Source: Amycolatopsis camponoti (GTDB lineage: Bacteria; Actinomycetota; Actinomycetes; Mycobacteriales; Pseudonocardiaceae). From it: a DNA stretch of 64,000 nucleotides. Of this stretch, positions 14,260 through 60,008 are shown piece after piece. The notes below the pieces were generated by a model. That model ran no database searches. It saw nothing but the letters and a program-made list of their open reading frames with translations, and was not told the origin of the DNA. The stretch spans positions 2,802,501-2,866,500 of the forward strand of contig NZ_CABVGP010000002.1 of NCBI RefSeq assembly GCF_902497555.1, given 5' to 3'. The translations under genes and the position numbers were made by a program. How positions within the stretch are numbered: the stretch's first letter is position 1; every line of letters begins with the position of its first letter.

Positions 14260-15039
14260 ATGACCACCGAACTGCTTCCCGCCGCCACTGCCGCTGTCCG
14301 TCGCGCGGGCGAACGGCTGCTGACGCGCTACTCCACCGAGACACGTCAGTCCGGTCGCGCCGAACTCCTCGCGGCCGCCTACGACAACGACGCCGCGGTG
14401 GTCGACGTGCTGCGGCCGGCGCTGGCCGAGATCCGCCCGCAGGCGAGCTGGCTGAACGACGAGCACGGCTTCGGTCCCTTGGACGAGGGCGAGTGGTGGC
14501 TCATCGACCCGGTCGGCGGCAATGTCAACACGGTGCACGGAATGACCGACTGGAACGTCGGGGTGAGCCTCGTTCGCGATGGACGCCCCGTGCTGTCGGT
14601 GCTCTACGTTCCTTTGCTGGATCAGATGTTCACGGCCACGGAGGGTGGAGGGACGTTTCTCAACGGCGTACGGCTGCGGGTTTCCGACAAGAAGTCGCTG
14701 GACGGCGCCCTGGCCGGCACCGGGCAGTCGAAGCCGAACCAGGACCCCGAGATCGCGGAGCGGATGGGGGCCTCGTTCACCGCGATGATGAAGTCGACCA
14801 TCTACGTCCGGATCTCGGTGCCGGCGACCCACCAGCTCGCCCAGGTCGCCGCGGGCCGGATGGATCTGCACTGGAACTTCGAGAACGTCCGCTCGCAGGT
14901 CGCCGGTGTGCTGCTGGTCCAGGAGGCCGGCGGTGTCGTCACCGACTTCGACGGCAAGCCGTGGACCCTCACCAGCACCGGCTACCTCGCGGCTGCCCCG
15001 GGCGTGCACGCCGCGGCGTTGGAGGTCCTCACCGCCTGA
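14260..15039 (+). CDS. inositol-monophosphatase-family protein with degenerate metal sites
   Basis: 259 residues with overall IMPase similarity, but the active-site signatures are altered. The signature DP-[IL]-DGT is DPVGGN at residues 83-88, so the second metal-binding Asp is Gly. The usual late WD motif reads HWNFEN. The early glutamate motif is DEHG. Family members need these Asp/Glu ligands for Mg2+, so this protein is probably not a normal phosphatase; it could be a binding protein or have a changed chemistry. It is divergent from LysR and probably controlled by it. Confidence 0.8.
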   Translation: MTTELLPAATAAVRRAGERLLTRYSTETRQSGRAELLAAAYDNDAAVVDVLRPALAEIRPQASWLNDEHGFGPLDEGEWWLIDPVGGNVNTVHGMTDWNVGVSLVRDGRPVLSVLYVPLLDQMFTATEGGGTFLNGVRLRVSDKKSLDGALAGTGQSKPNQDPEIAERMGASFTAMMKSTIYVRISVPATHQLAQVAAGRMDLHWNFENVRSQVAGVLLVQEAGGVVTDFDGKPWTLTSTGYLAAAPGVHAAALEVLTA

Positions 15040-53478: not shown

Positions 53479-54687
53479 GTGCGGGTGACGGACGAGGACG
53501 AGCTGCAGGTGCTGATCGACGACCTGGCCGAGGAGCTGGGCCGGTCGGTGATCATCGACGACCCGCTGGTCCGGATCCTGTGCGCCAGCCGGCACTTCGG
53601 CGACGAGGACGAGCTTCGCGTGCGTGCCGTCCTGCAACGCGATGCCGGTCCGGAGGCCAGTTCGCACGTGCTCGCCCAGGGTGTCGCCCGCTGGACCGGG
53701 CCGGGCATCGTGCCGGGCCGGGCGGACCTGGGCATGCGCGATCGGCTGTGCGTGCCGCTGCGCGAGCGCGGCGAGCTGCTCGGGCTGCTCATGGTCATCG
53801 ACGCCGAGCACACGCTCACCCCGCGCGAGCTGGCGAAGATCCAGGACCGGTCCAGGACGGCCGCTGCCGTCATGCGCCGGCGCGCCCTCGCTCACTCCGC
53901 GGACCGGACGGCGGAAGCGCACTTCCTGCTGCGGCTGGTGCACCCGGACGCCGGTATCCGGGCGGAGGCGCTGGCCGGCGGTCCGGCCGAGGACGGCCCG
54001 GTGGTCGCCGTCTCACTGCGGGTGCGAGATCGCGAGCTACCGGACGCCGAATCGGACGTCGCGTTGCACATCGTCCTCGAGTCGGCCGCGCTCCGGCAGC
54101 GCCACCGGGTGCGCACCGCGGTGCGCGACGGCCACGGCACGGCGCTCTTTTCCGGTGCGGCCACCGCGGACGTCGGAGGCGTCGTCGAGCGGATGGCGGC
54201 CGGGGCCGGCCGGCTGCTCGACGTGCCCGGGGCGGTCCTCGCCGGGATCGGTGCCCCGGCGGCCGGCCTGGGTGAGGCATGGCGGTCGTACCGGCAGGCC
54301 GAGGTGGCGGTCCGGGGCGCCGGCCGCGTCCCCGGCGCGGGTGCGGTGGTGCGGTGGGCGGACCTCGGTCCGTACGCCATGGTCTTGCAACTGCCCGCCG
54401 GGCAGCCGGGGCTGCTGCCGGCGGCGTTCACCCGGCTCGCCGAGCACGAGAAGGCCGACCGCCTGCTCGAGACGCTCCGGGCGTTCCTCGAGGCGGGCGG
54501 CTCGATCCGCCGGACGGCGGACGCCCTGCACCTGCACCGCACGTCGTTGTACTACCGCCTGGACCAGATCCGCGCGATCACGGGCCTCGACCTGGACGAC
54601 GGCGGCGACCGGCTGCAGTTGCACCTGTCCCTGCTGCTCACCGCCCTGGAAGCGCCGGAGCATCGTCAGACCCCGCTCGGTCGGTAG
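53479..54687 (+). CDS. PucR/CdaR-family transcriptional regulator
   Basis: 402 residues from GTG 53479; GTG 53485 is also possible. A GAF-like sensory N-terminus (VIIDDPLVRILCASRHFGDED) and a middle GGDEF-related region are followed by the C-terminal PucR HTH (ALHLHRTSLYYRLDQIRAITGLDL). The family regulates purine, sugar-acid and detoxification genes. It is divergent from the SDR and convergent with the RHS toxin-like gene, 65 bp away. Confidence 0.9.
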   Translation: MRVTDEDELQVLIDDLAEELGRSVIIDDPLVRILCASRHFGDEDELRVRAVLQRDAGPEASSHVLAQGVARWTGPGIVPGRADLGMRDRLCVPLRERGELLGLLMVIDAEHTLTPRELAKIQDRSRTAAAVMRRRALAHSADRTAEAHFLLRLVHPDAGIRAEALAGGPAEDGPVVAVSLRVRDRELPDAESDVALHIVLESAALRQRHRVRTAVRDGHGTALFSGAATADVGGVVERMAAGAGRLLDVPGAVLAGIGAPAAGLGEAWRSYRQAEVAVRGAGRVPGAGAVVRWADLGPYAMVLQLPAGQPGLLPAAFTRLAEHEKADRLLETLRAFLEAGGSIRRTADALHLHRTSLYYRLDQIRAITGLDLDDGGDRLQLHLSLLLTALEAPEHRQTPLGR

Positions 54688-54752
54688 CTCGGCCGTGTCG
54701 GCCCGCTTTGCCGTCGTCGGCGGCGGCGCACCGGTGGTCCTGCCGCAGCCGC

Positions 54753-57700
54753 TCAGCCTCGCCCTTGCCGCTTGCCCCAGAAGTACTCGTTGGCCAGGTT
54801 CTTCTTGATCTGGTCGGAGAGTCCGGCGTAACGCGGGTCGTTGTTCAGGACGTTCTCGATGTCCTGGACCGCGTTCTGGGTCTGCGTCTTCTTCGGGTGG
54901 TCGGCGGGCAGGTTGTTGACGTCGTTCTGGAAGTCCTCCCAGCTGTGTTTCGTCTTGTTCGCGTTGCCGGGGATGTCGTTGAGGGTGTACGAGGTCCGCG
55001 GCGGGTCGTTGAGGTTGAACTTGTTCTCGTGGTGCAGCACGTTGTGGTACTCGATGACCGACTGGTTGGTGTTGCTGCCGTTGTACCCGAGCTGGTCCTG
55101 CTTGATGTGGCCCATCTCGTGGTACAGCGTCTTGTCCGGCTGGCCGGCACCGAGGTTGATCGTGCCGGACTGGTGGTTGTACCCGCCGCCGCCCTGGAGG
55201 TCGAGAGCGTCGTGGGCCTTGTTGTGCCCGAACTCCCCGGCGACGGTGTCCGCGTCGTAGCCCATGTAGTGGCCGACCGTCTTGCCGTGGTCGGCCGGGC
55301 CGAAACCGTGTGCCACGTCGGGCGGCAGGTCTTCGATCTTGGTGTTCAGCTTGACGTTCGGGTCGTCCGGGATCTTCAGGGTCTTCTGCGGCCCGTCGAT
55401 GCCCAGCTCGTTCTGGTAATCGTCGTACTTGTCCCCGAACGGCCGGTTGTCGTTCGCCGGCCGGTTGTTCCCAGGGTGATCGGGGCCCGCGGGCTCGTAG
55501 TCGATGGGCGTGTGCTGGTTCTGGTTGCCACCGGAGTGCGATTGACCGCCGCCGGTGTGGTCGCCGCCGGGCGTACCCGTGCCGTGGCCGGGCGGAGGCG
55601 GGGGCGGCGGAGGTGGCGGCGCGCCGGTGGCCCCGTGCCCAGGGGGAGGCGGGGGCGGAGGTGGCGGCGCGCCGGTGTTCCCGTGCCCAGGGGGAGGCGG
55701 CGGTGGCGGTGGCGGCGGCGCGCCGGTGTTCCCGTGCCCCGGGGGCGGGGGCGGCGGAGGTGGTGGCGGCGCGCCGGTGGCCCCGTGCCCTGGGGGCGGC
55801 GGGGGAGGCGGTGGCGGTGGTGGCGGTTGCGGGGACGGGTTGGAATTCTGGACGTGGGTGGCGTCGTTGCCGGCGTTGGCGTGCGGCGGCGGCGCCGGGT
55901 GCGGTGCGGGCGTGTCGGTGTCGTCGGCCAGCTTGCTGCTGGTGCAGCCGAGGCCGAGCGGGTCGGCCTCGGACAACGGGTTGGGCACGTAGGCGATCGG
56001 GTTCGGCGCCGGGCTGAGCCCCAGCGGGTCCTGGCTGAGGTAGCGGCCGGTGCCCGGGTCGTAGTAGCGGAAGACGTTGTAGTGCAAGCCGGTCTCGTCG
56101 TCGGCGTACTGGCCGGGGAACCGCAGCGGCGTCGACACGCTGCCCGGGCGACCGGGCGTCACGCGGCCCCACAGCGACGTGGTGGCGTGCCAGGCCACGA
56201 CCCCGTGGGCGTCGACCATGTCGACGGGCGTGCCGATCTGGTCGGTGACGAACGAGAAGAACCGCACCCCGGTGCCGAGGTGCTCGGTCTGCGTGACCGG
56301 GCGCGTGCTGCCGGGGTAGTGGTCCCAGGTGAGCACGAGCTCGCGGCCGTCGGCGCCGCGGTGCACCTGCTCCACGAGCAGCTGGCCGCTCCAGGTGAAC
56401 GTGACCTCTTCGGCCACGCTGCCGTCGGGCGCCAGGCGCTGCTTCGCGGTGCGGCGGCCGAACGGGTCGTAGCGGTAGCGCCACTCGGCGCCCTGGGGCG
56501 TCCGGACGCCGAGGAGGCGGTCGAGCGGACCCCAGTGGTAGGTCCAGGTGCCGCTCGGGCCGCTGCGGGTGGTCAGGCGGCCCTGGGCGTCGTAGCCGAA
56601 CCGGACCGGGCCCGCGGCGGCCAGCGTGTTGCCGGTGTAGTCGCGCGGTCCGAGCTCGGCGGCCGGCAGCTGCGCGTGGACGATGTTGCCTGCCGCGTCG
56701 TAGCGGTAGCTCTCGGTTCCGCTTCGCGCGGCGACGTCGGTGACGCGACCGGCCGGGTCGAGCCGGAACCGCACCGGCCCGGAGAGGGCGTCGTCGACGC
56801 CGACGAGGCGGCCGTCGGGCTGGTAGAGGTAGCCGCGCTGCTGGATCACGCGGGCGGTGTCGCGCGCGGTCACGGTCTGCCGCGTCAGCTGGTGCTCGGC
56901 GTCGAACGCCTGGGTCAGCGTGGCGCCGGTGCCGGTGGTGCGCTCGATCTCCCGGCCGGCCTCGTCGTGACGGAACGAGACCACCTGCCCGGCGACGAGC
57001 AGCGACGCCGGGGTGCCGTCGGCGTCGTAGGTCCACGCACTGTCCACTCCGGACGGAGTGTGGCGCCGGACGCTCGCCTCGTCGTAGGAGTACGCGATCG
57101 CGCGGCCGTCGACGGTTTCCCGCACGACGTGGCCGAACTCGTCACGCTCGATCTCCACCACGCTGTCGCCTTCGGTGGCGCGCACGAGGAAACCGACCGG
57201 GTCGTAGGTGTAGGTGGTCACGCCCGCGGCGGTGTGGCGCTCGACCACGTTGCCCAGGGCGTCGTAGGTGAACGTCGTGGCCGCGCCGAGGCCGTCGACC
57301 GACTTCACGAGCTGGCCGGCGCCGTCGTACTCGAAGCGCAGCACGCGGCCGTCGAAGTCGGTCTCGGAGACCGGGCGCCCGGCGGCGTCGTAGGTGTAGG
57401 ACCAGGTCAGGCCCGCGGGGTTCGTCACGCGCGTCAGGCGCAGCTCGGTGTCGTACTCGTACGCGGTCCGGGCTCCGGTGGCGTCGATCTTCGCGACGGT
57501 GAGGTCGAACGGACCGTACTCGTAGCGTTCGCCGCCGTGCTCGACGACGTTGCCCTCGGGGTCGTAGCGCCACTTGTCCTGCCGGCCCGTCGGCCCGATC
57601 CGGAGGGCGCGGCGGCCCTCGACGGTCCAGTCGAGCCGGGTCCGGGCCCCGGAGGCGTCGGTGACCACGCGCGGACGGCCGAACAGGTCCCGCTCCACCG

Positions 57701-60008
57701 GGTCTTCGACCGGGGCCGGCGCGACCTCCGCGCGCCACTGCCGGTCCTGCCGGAACTCGACGTCCGCCGTGGAGCGCACCGCGAGCAGGTCGGGTGCGGT
57801 CCCGGCCGGGTACACCCGCCGGTGGGTCCGGGCGCCGCTGGTGACCGTGAGCGTCAGTGAACCGTCCGCTCCGGACTCGACTCCGGCGCGGGTCCCGTCC
57901 GGCCGCACGATCGTCGTGAGCAGGCCCTCCGCGGTGTACTCGAACGCCGTGGTGCGGCCGAGCGCGTCGGTGCGGGACAGGAGGCGGTCGTAGCGGTCCC
58001 AAGTGGACACCGTCGTCTCGCCGAGCGGGCCGACCTCGCGCACGACCTGGTCGGCTTCGTTGACGTGGAATTCCGTGCGGTGGCCGAGAGAGTCGGTGTA
58101 GGTGGTGACGCGGTTTTCGCGGTCGTAGGCGAACTGGCCGTCGTAGAACCCACGGTCGCCGACGGTCCGCACGCAGCGGCCTTCGGCGTCGTAGACGTAG
58201 CGGTACCAGACGCCGTTGCGGTCCTGCCAGCCGGTGATCCGGCCGTCCGCGTCGTAGTCGTAGGTCTCGGCCAGGCCCGAGGAGTTGATCACGCGGGTCA
58301 AGCGGCCGAGTTCGTCGTAGCCGAAGGTGCGGGCGAGCACGGTGAGGTTCTTCTTCGGGTCGACCACCCGGATCGCCGTGATCCGCCCGGCGGCCGAGTC
58401 GAGCTCGACCAGGTAGCCACTCGTGTGCCTCAGGAGCTTCGGTGCGCCGGACCGGTCGTACTCCACGTCGACCCGGTCGCGTCCGGCGCCGATCATCGCC
58501 GACACCGGAAGAGTCTCGCCGCCCCGGCCCGGAAGCCGGCCGAACCGCAACTCCGTGCCCCGCAGGGGATCCGTGACCGAGTACGTGCCGTCTTCGTCGA
58601 CGCTCAGCGGGCGGCGCGGACCCTCCGCCGGCTGTACCGGGGAACCGACCGCGGGGAGCGGGTAGACGAGGATCGTGCCGTCGGCGCAGTAGAAGGTCGC
58701 GGTGCGCTCGTCGAACTCGAGGCGCTGGTCCACGGTGGACGTCCAGACCGGACCGAACCACTGCCCCGCGCGGTAGGTCGAGAGGTGCAGCCGCTCCAGC
58801 ACGAGCGGGTCGGGCAGGCGCAGGTCCACCTGCTCCAGCACGACGGCCCCGCGCACCACGTCGACCGGGTCGGACTTGCAGACCAGGTTGTCCTTGCCGA
58901 CCGCGGTGTCGCGCGGGTTGTCCGGCTTGGGGGAGGGCGGCGGCGTGTTCGCCGGCCCCTTGGTCCCGGCACCGCCGCCTCCGGGCGGGTCGCCCTTCGC
59001 GAGTGGCGGCGGGGTGCCGTGGTCGCCCGGCGTCTTCACGGAGTCGTCGCCACCGGTCTTGCCGGGCGGCGGCGTGTGGTCCTTCGGGGTGCTGTGGTCG
59101 CCCGAGGCCGACGTGCTGTCGTCGCCGCCCTTGGCCGCCGGTGGCGGTGTGTGGTCCTTGGGGGTGCCGCCGCCGTCGCCACCGGGGGTTTTCCCCGGTG
59201 GCGCCTTCGGGGTTCCGGTGATGTCGCCGACCTTGGGCGGCGGGGCGGTCTTGCCGACCTTGATGTTCTTGAGCGCTTTGCCCGCGTCCTCGAACAGCGT
59301 TCCGGCCCTCTTCAGCAGCGGCACCAGGGCCTTCAACGCCTTGACGAGCTTGGTGACCAGGTCGGTGATCTTCGACGCGGTTTTCGCGACCGCGGTGATC
59401 ACCTGCGGGACGACCCAGGTCAGGCCGATGCCGAGGGTGAAGATGACCTGCAGCGCCCAGCTGATCAGGTGACCGACGAGTTCGGAGATGATGTCACGCA
59501 CCAGGGTGCGGACCGCGGCCACGACCTCACCGGCGGTTTTGACGCCGCTGGAAGCACCTTCGCAGCCCTGCTGCGCGGCTTGCAGGGTGGTGGCGACGTC
59601 CTGTCCGCGCTGCCGGTAGGTGTCCGAGGCTGGTCCGGACCACGACTGCAGATCGGCCTTGATGGCGTCGGTCAGGTCCGAGGAGACGCTGCCGAGCTCT
59701 TTGGCGACGTTGGCCCAGGTCTCGGACTGGGCGGCGATTTCGTCGGCGTTGCCGGTGAGCGCGTTGAGGGCGTCCTTGAGCGGGCCGACGTGCTCCATCA
59801 ACCAGCTGACCCCGGCGGCGAGGATCGCGCCGAACGGGTCCATGGCCATCGACAGGGCGTCGAGCGCCGTGCCGACCGCGCCCATCGCCACCGAGGCCCA
59901 GTCGCCGCTCTTGATGGCGGCCGAGAGATCGTTGGCGGATTCCAGGAGCGAGATGCCGGAGTAGGCCTTCGTCGAGTCCTGGGTCTGCGCGATCAACGGG
60001 TTGCTCAC
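54753..60008 (-). CDS. giant WXG-RHS polymorphic toxin-like protein with a C-terminal HExxH domain
   Basis: 1751 residues. Order: a WXG100-like helical N-terminus with W-S-G at 123-125; hydrophobic helices about 170-205; a Pro/Gly/Thr/Asp-rich linker (260-370) with repeated KDHTPPP; a DUF6531 start (from about 380); many YD/RHS repeats; the RHS core end RYYDPGTGRYLSQDPLGL (about 1313-1330); five polyproline tracts (about 1393-1480); then a unique C-terminal domain. That domain has HEMGH at 1630-1634 and Glu 1653 as a possible third ligand, a zincin-like metallopeptidase signature. It is probably exported by a type VII system and releases the C-terminal domain; no signal peptide or secretion gene is nearby. 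Confidence 0.9.
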   Translation of the reverse strand: MSNPLIAQTQDSTKAYSGISLLESANDLSAAIKSGDWASVAMGAVGTALDALSMAMDPFGAILAAGVSWLMEHVGPLKDALNALTGNADEIAAQSETWANVAKELGSVSSDLTDAIKADLQSWSGPASDTYRQRGQDVATTLQAAQQGCEGASSGVKTAGEVVAAVRTLVRDIISELVGHLISWALQVIFTLGIGLTWVVPQVITAVAKTASKITDLVTKLVKALKALVPLLKRAGTLFEDAGKALKNIKVGKTAPPPKVGDITGTPKAPPGKTPGGDGGGTPKDHTPPPAAKGGDDSTSASGDHSTPKDHTPPPGKTGGDDSVKTPGDHGTPPPLAKGDPPGGGGAGTKGPANTPPPSPKPDNPRDTAVGKDNLVCKSDPVDVVRGAVVLEQVDLRLPDPLVLERLHLSTYRAGQWFGPVWTSTVDQRLEFDERTATFYCADGTILVYPLPAVGSPVQPAEGPRRPLSVDEDGTYSVTDPLRGTELRFGRLPGRGGETLPVSAMIGAGRDRVDVEYDRSGAPKLLRHTSGYLVELDSAAGRITAIRVVDPKKNLTVLARTFGYDELGRLTRVINSSGLAETYDYDADGRITGWQDRNGVWYRYVYDAEGRCVRTVGDRGFYDGQFAYDRENRVTTYTDSLGHRTEFHVNEADQVVREVGPLGETTVSTWDRYDRLLSRTDALGRTTAFEYTAEGLLTTIVRPDGTRAGVESGADGSLTLTVTSGARTHRRVYPAGTAPDLLAVRSTADVEFRQDRQWRAEVAPAPVEDPVERDLFGRPRVVTDASGARTRLDWTVEGRRALRIGPTGRQDKWRYDPEGNVVEHGGERYEYGPFDLTVAKIDATGARTAYEYDTELRLTRVTNPAGLTWSYTYDAAGRPVSETDFDGRVLRFEYDGAGQLVKSVDGLGAATTFTYDALGNVVERHTAAGVTTYTYDPVGFLVRATEGDSVVEIERDEFGHVVRETVDGRAIAYSYDEASVRRHTPSGVDSAWTYDADGTPASLLVAGQVVSFRHDEAGREIERTTGTGATLTQAFDAEHQLTRQTVTARDTARVIQQRGYLYQPDGRLVGVDDALSGPVRFRLDPAGRVTDVAARSGTESYRYDAAGNIVHAQLPAAELGPRDYTGNTLAAAGPVRFGYDAQGRLTTRSGPSGTWTYHWGPLDRLLGVRTPQGAEWRYRYDPFGRRTAKQRLAPDGSVAEEVTFTWSGQLLVEQVHRGADGRELVLTWDHYPGSTRPVTQTEHLGTGVRFFSFVTDQIGTPVDMVDAHGVVAWHATTSLWGRVTPGRPGSVSTPLRFPGQYADDETGLHYNVFRYYDPGTGRYLSQDPLGLSPAPNPIAYVPNPLSEADPLGLGCTSSKLADDTDTPAPHPAPPPHANAGNDATHVQNSNPSPQPPPPPPPPPPPPGHGATGAPPPPPPPPPPGHGNTGAPPPPPPPPPPGHGNTGAPPPPPPPPPGHGATGAPPPPPPPPPPGHGTGTPGGDHTGGGQSHSGGNQNQHTPIDYEPAGPDHPGNNRPANDNRPFGDKYDDYQNELGIDGPQKTLKIPDDPNVKLNTKIEDLPPDVAHGFGPADHGKTVGHYMGYDADTVAGEFGHNKAHDALDLQGGGGYNHQSGTINLGAGQPDKTLYHEMGHIKQDQLGYNGSNTNQSVIEYHNVLHHENKFNLNDPPRTSYTLNDIPGNANKTKHSWEDFQNDVNNLPADHPKKTQTQNAVQDIENVLNNDPRYAGLSDQIKKNLANEYFWGKRQGRG
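55570..55835 (-). repeat. polyproline minisatellite inside the RHS toxin gene
   Basis: Five tracts of 12, 10, 10, 9 and 10 prolines, separated by GHGATGA or GHGNTGA and closed by GHGTG. The DNA is a tandem array of units of roughly 50 bp, made mostly of GGC/GGA/GGT-type triplets on the + strand. It lies between the RHS core end and the C-terminal HExxH domain. Copy number could vary between strains. Confidence 0.85.

Follow-up and report, generated by a model that had tools for sequence, protein, structure and literature searches.

The gene and its domains

The window analysed here is a stretch of 64,000 nucleotides from Amycolatopsis camponoti (contig NZ_CABVGP010000002.1, positions 2,802,501 to 2,866,500). 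It contains a large gene at 54753..60008, whose product of 1751 amino acids joins a WXG100-like export domain, a shell of RHS/YD repeats, a polyproline spacer and a C-terminal domain with a HExxH motif in one chain. A sequence-only reading of the window had given exactly these coordinates; the gene was however found on the minus strand, with a GTG start at 60008 and the stop at 54753, while the plus-strand reading is interrupted by an internal stop. The GC content at the three codon positions (0.69/0.52/0.93) follows the pattern of a real gene. Long open reading frames overlap it in other frames, at 54279-57860 on the plus strand and at 54037-57036 on the minus strand; these are passed over by the codon-position analysis and are most likely a by-product of the GC content of about 72%.

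The order of domains described in the sequence-only reading was retained, with all features on the minus strand. The N-terminal export domain, residues 1-250 (59259..60008), can be called WXG100-like: the WXG100_2 match at residues 87-202 scored 26.7 bits against a cut-off of 27, slightly below threshold, and the WXG100 match had an E value of 0.0018. A linker rich in proline, glycine and aspartate, residues 251-379 (58872..59258), separates it from the shell, residues 380-1353 (55950..58871). According to Pfam and NCBIfam the shell begins with DUF6531 at 380-449, includes ten stretches of RHS repeats and reaches the end of the RHS core at 1353, where a DPLGL at 1327 is followed by the DPLGL core motif at 1349-1353. 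Both the RHS repeats (PF05593, 231.7 bits, cut-off 22) and the Rhs-associated core (TIGR03696, 77.7 bits, cut-off 32.5) scored above the curated cut-offs, and solved Rhs shells in the PDB matched by sequence with a best E value of 2e-104. The polyproline/GHG spacer, residues 1354-1523 (55440..55949), differs in length from the spacers of the relatives P0002 and P0003.

The remaining part, residues 1524-1751 together with the stop codon (54753..55439), is the C-terminal zincin-like domain as delimited by the alignments A3-A5 and a structure model. It had earlier been placed from residue 1500, but the alignable part begins near residue 1524. HEMGH at 1630-1634 (55107..55121), a putative zinc-binding motif, and the glutamate at 1653 (55050..55052) were both located in the translation at the positions given before. 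Glu1653 is the first residue of EYHN, 19 positions past His1634, and is a candidate third zinc ligand. GGGGYN at 1606-1611 (55176..55193) lies N-terminal to HExxH, and RTSY, Arg1671-Tyr1674 (54987..54998), follows EYHN.

A family of C-terminal domains with a predicted zincin-like fold

Of 398 candidates in a protein search with residues 1540-1751, four RHS proteins reached E 0.01 or better, and two of these carry the name Amycolatopsis. The profile search added P0006 and P0007 (two of 1777 candidates), and a genome scan gave relatives in A. vancoresmycina and in a metagenome-assembled genome of Pseudanabaena (two of 47 pattern matches). Within the genus the domain was found in seven genomes out of 80, five with a full-length and two with a fragmentary copy, and in the taxonomic family in 15 out of 390 (12 full-length, two fragmentary, one within an eCIS_core domain only). 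Further away it occurred in three of 394 genomes of the actinomycete class, namely G001, G817 and one with the match in an eCIS_core domain only, and, among 388 genomes searched in the cyanobacterial class, in one (G002, source of locus L002). No relatives were found by a standalone search using the last 195 residues or among the plasmids searched, and none of 29 pattern hits in viral contigs was confirmed. G351 and G1038 were excluded from the family, as their weak matches fall in eCIS_core domains, and G062 and G050 were excluded as fragments. These remnants of the peptidase domain, at L031 in G062 and L032 in G050, come from two further Amycolatopsis genomes, and one contains an in-frame stop.

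The A5 alignment comprised 17 members, while motif counts and the tree are based on 18. The HExxH motif, on whose conservation among relatives the sequence-only reading depended, is kept in all 18 members in the form HExGHxxQ, as are EYxN and RxxY. A glutamate, the putative ligand, stands 19 to 22 positions after HExGH in 18 of 18. The first two glycines and the tyrosine of GGGGYN are invariant in 17 of 17 alignment rows. At the position +7 after HExxH the window has glycine, as have 16 of the 18 members, the others having methionine and aspartate (one each). The ratios of nonsynonymous to synonymous substitution (dN/dS) for the domain were 0.385 against L001 and 0.427 against L020; those for the shell were 0.41 and 0.23, and those for the export domain 0.08 in both comparisons (98 and 250 codons). 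Judged by these ratios the C-terminal domain is under constraint, yet less so than the export domain. Taken together, motif conservation and the dN/dS of the domain place the HExxH motif beyond chance.

The structure model of the C-terminal domain reached a predicted local distance difference test score (pLDDT) of 86 and a predicted template modelling score of 0.82. It replaced an earlier model built from five sequences (pLDDT 62), for which the fold search was uninformative. With the new model 44 of the 50 structural matches listed were zinc metallopeptidases, as recognized by title or as familiar proteins; redundant entries of lethal factor made up 20 of the 44, of which three aligned to the non-catalytic N-terminal part of that protein, and clostridial collagenases another 10. 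GtgA, PipA and M91 were absent among the 50 matches listed, and Foldseek against PDB and viral structures gave no match at E 0.001 or better. The predicted fold can be called zincin-like; the sequence-only reading had proposed structure prediction to look for a gluzincin or metzincin fold.

The earlier statement that the domain could not be assigned to a named toxin family was upheld: the domain of the window gave no match to Pfam at E 10, nor to GtgA/GogA in NCBIfam at E 1. The 17 members of A5 matched 15 Pfam families at E 10, among them DUF6782 (nine members), PipA (three), M91 (two) and Tox-MPTase4 (one). In ten members scanned singly the domain stayed under every Pfam cut-off; the whole protein at L034 passed that of Peptidase_M78 (IrrE-like, PF06114; 25.2 against 22 bits) over the HExxH region, but its domain alone scored 16.8, and no A5 member matched Peptidase_M78. 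On these sequence comparisons the C-terminal domain is a real family without a name.

Several named families nevertheless resemble it in part. In GtgA, GogA and PipA, effector proteases of type III secretion systems (PF07108, NF052332), the HExxH, a glutamate at +19 and PPRxxY are in register with the domain of the window, the glutamate register with GtgA being counted by hand from the alignment. The A5 profile had GtgA (6ggo/6ggr) as its sole hit in the PDB, spanning HxxxH, EYxN and PPRxxY, and Tyr1674 of the window aligned with Tyr-224 of GtgA, which the consulted part of the source describes as close to the zinc (PMC6166728). However, this hit had an E value of only 0.48, PF07108 was matched by three of 17 members (best E 0.11) and NF052332 by four (GtgA/GogA, best E 0.028), the window matched neither, and the third zinc ligand of GtgA is an aspartate at +7, a position that is mostly glycine in the window's family. 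Peptidase_M91 (PF14891), which we take to be the same as HopH1-like, shares HExGHxxQ followed by E..N; hhalign, run against three near-identical sequences, gave a probability of 56 across 32 columns, but the best member scored 15.7 bits against a cut-off of 25 and the window had no match. DUF6782 (PF20573) was matched weakly by nine of 17 members with a best E value of 9.1e-5, but the best score was 22.3 bits against a cut-off of 27 and the domain of the window itself was unmatched. The HExxHxxQ-E signature of eCIS_core, the PVC-metallopeptidase (PF13699), is present in 18 of 18 members, and hhalign aligned the two over 49 columns with a probability of 94.7 and a score of 52.1, the best of 40 column shuffles scoring 21.2. 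The EYxN/RxxY half of the family lies outside that alignment, however, none of the 17 A5 members matched PF13699, and eCIS_core forms a separate first domain at L002 and L034.

Carriers of the domain

The sequence-only reading had proposed a search for relatives with other C-termini, and the same shell was found carrying many other tails. The shell is present in 79 of 80 genomes of the genus, frequently in several copies; 40 further shells were retrieved, and the 34 that could be parsed had tails of many kinds as judged by eye. At seven loci (L024-L030) the domain occurs without RHS. Three gene-called carriers from these loci have 621, 637 and 668 residues, and the short helical region at the N-terminus of the L024-L030 carriers looks EspC-like by eye; one of three scanned (L030) matched EspC in Pfam, below the cut-off, at E 0.032. 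The gene directly upstream was homologous to residues 1-300 of the window protein at all seven loci (phmmer E 4.6e-20 to 3.7e-28), and two of three such partners scanned passed the cut-off of PF06013. In Amycolatopsis, then, the export domain is part of the same chain, and elsewhere it has a gene of its own.

The stand-alone partner family was present in 175 of 200 genomes of the taxonomic family. Among 18 such loci retrieved, 14 had, as judged by eye, a next gene of similar N-terminus, with a C-terminus varying among most of them. At L024-L030 and L163-L180 the gene directly after a stand-alone WXG100-like partner of about 280 residues encodes a short linker and EspC-like helices ahead of a variable C-terminus, an arrangement that looks like a polymorphic type VII cassette common in this taxonomic family. 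EccB was found in 13 of 14 other genomes bearing the domain, the exception being the cyanobacterium.

Two further carriers, L002 (9110-10642) and L034 (835-2244), are fusions to the eCIS_core domain of extracellular contractile injection systems (eCIS). Each chain has an eCIS_core zincin followed by a zincin of the window's family, hence two zinc-protease motifs. No linkage of sheath genes to the fusions was seen; those in G002 and G817 lie on other contigs. The tree of 18 rows grouped carriers of the same kind; its deep nodes are weakly supported, and the three eCIS-type rows, P0007 being counted as such by eye, have long branches of over 1.0. Platform switches therefore look few, though undated.

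Neighbouring genes and proposed function

No antidote gene linked to the domain was found across 13 peptidase loci. A same-strand gene within 150 bp downstream was present in one of them, a cytochrome P450 at L001. In the window the downstream gene is convergent and encodes PucR (Pfam); elsewhere the downstream genes vary from locus to locus, with AMP-binding at L021, glyoxalase at L026, TetR at L030 and a transposase 417 bp away at L029 (Pfam). The downstream frame at L020 (867 bp away, score 0.22, without Pfam match) is probably spurious. For shells with other tails, a motif-based parse placed a gene on the same strand downstream of 19 out of 34, and a cruder scan did so for 20 of 40. Fisher tests of 1/13 against these counts gave p values of 0.003 and 0.008, and 0.024 when the 13 loci were merged to nine contexts; the values are rough, because the loci are related and genes were called by codon-position GC.

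We consider it likely that the gene encodes an RHS polymorphic effector with a WXG100-like N-terminus for type VII (ESX) export and a zinc metallopeptidase as its tip. The zincin-type effector exported by a type VII system, as the sequence-only reading had it, is supported by the domain architecture, the invariant motifs, the modelled fold and an export module shared in cis and in trans; we infer export, self-cleavage, zinc binding and proteolysis. The WXG100-like N-terminus would most likely direct export by the ESX machinery. Rhs proteins cut off their tips at DPLGL motifs; by analogy the shell would fold around the C-terminal tip and then cut itself at the conserved DPLGL motif. The freed tip would act as a zinc metallopeptidase with His1630 and His1634 as zinc ligands and Glu1631 activating the water; the third ligand is likely to be Glu1653, and Tyr1674 probably serves as the transition-state tyrosine. 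More speculatively, as no linked immunity gene was found and the likeness to the GtgA/PipA and M91 effectors is weak, the target is probably something that kin do not have, such as a protein from a eukaryotic competitor or predator. Our tentative proposal, which we hold with clear reserve, is a new family of zincin effectors, distantly akin to GtgA/PipA and M91, exported through type VII by soil actinomycetes against eukaryotic competitors or predators, and common to WXG-RHS proteins, to two-gene loci with a WXG partner and an EspC-like carrier, and to eCIS.

A usual polymorphic antibacterial toxin of type VII, whose peptidase attacks rival bacteria at a protein of their envelope or cytoplasm and whose producer is protected by compartment or by immunity encoded elsewhere, appears to us a credible but rather unlikely alternative. 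The same-strand neighbours of 19 of 34 other tails imply that shells of this family also serve where immunity is likely, their near-universal, frequently multicopy presence in the genus would suit such a role, and the absence of a neighbour is compatible with an unlinked antidote. At the peptidase loci themselves, however, the only close same-strand gene is a P450, no downstream gene is constant between loci, and the Fisher values, rough as they are, run the other way. Also in favour of this alternative, the cited part of a survey of polymorphic toxins gives an immunity family, Imm-SuFu, for the lethal-factor-like metallopeptidase toxin, although it lists none for the Tox-HopH1, Tox-MPTase1-5 and PVC types, in which these resemble the window's domain; for PVC toxins it considers that lack of immunity may signal distantly related targets (PMC3482391).

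That the domain is a protease for processing or nutrition, freeing or recycling the exported chain in the way suggested for PVC/eCIS metallopeptidases without being the payload itself, we find improbable. This reading draws on the hhalign likeness to eCIS_core, described in the same portion of text as mainly autoproteolytic (PMC3482391), but in both eCIS fusions the domain is C-terminal to a separate eCIS_core, in payload position, and in the carriers examined it occupies the C-terminal end, where tails swap. Least probable of all is a zincin-fold domain that is no longer proteolytic or whose HExxH site serves other chemistry, as the catalytic glutamate is retained in 18 of 18 members.

The combination of a type VII WXG leader, RHS repeats and a C-terminal HExxH domain is already in print for Tox-HopH1 and Tox-MPTase1 (Zhang et al., 2012; PMC3482391, in part), the likeness to Tox-MPTase1 being one of published description and not of sequence alignment. 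LrhA, the Rhs toxin of the Listeria T7SSb, is a DUF6531 and RHS protein adjoining a WXG100 helper gene; its helpers are, in the part of the account used here, separate small genes of the locus, whereas the WXG100-like domain of the window is fused to the RHS protein (PMC10327511). Type VII toxins in Amycolatopsis are not new either, as an LXG-domain alarmone synthetase of A. azurea has been linked to the system (PMC12691689, likewise in part). No title or abstract start describing the window's domain was found in the open-licence literature searched, nor did the term DUF6782 occur in it. The unassigned C-terminal domain now becomes a defined family whose catalytic residues can be put to the test, and its export module, in cis in the RHS proteins and in trans at the two-gene loci, gives direct access to the way in which type VII systems of actinobacteria recognize large toxins. 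A eukaryotic target, if true, would mean that the known host-directed proteases have an environmental relative outside the proteobacteria. As a minor observation, at L021 a gene of the YbjQ family (14531-15004) directly precedes the RHS-peptidase gene, and genes of similar size are present at that place in L022 and L023.
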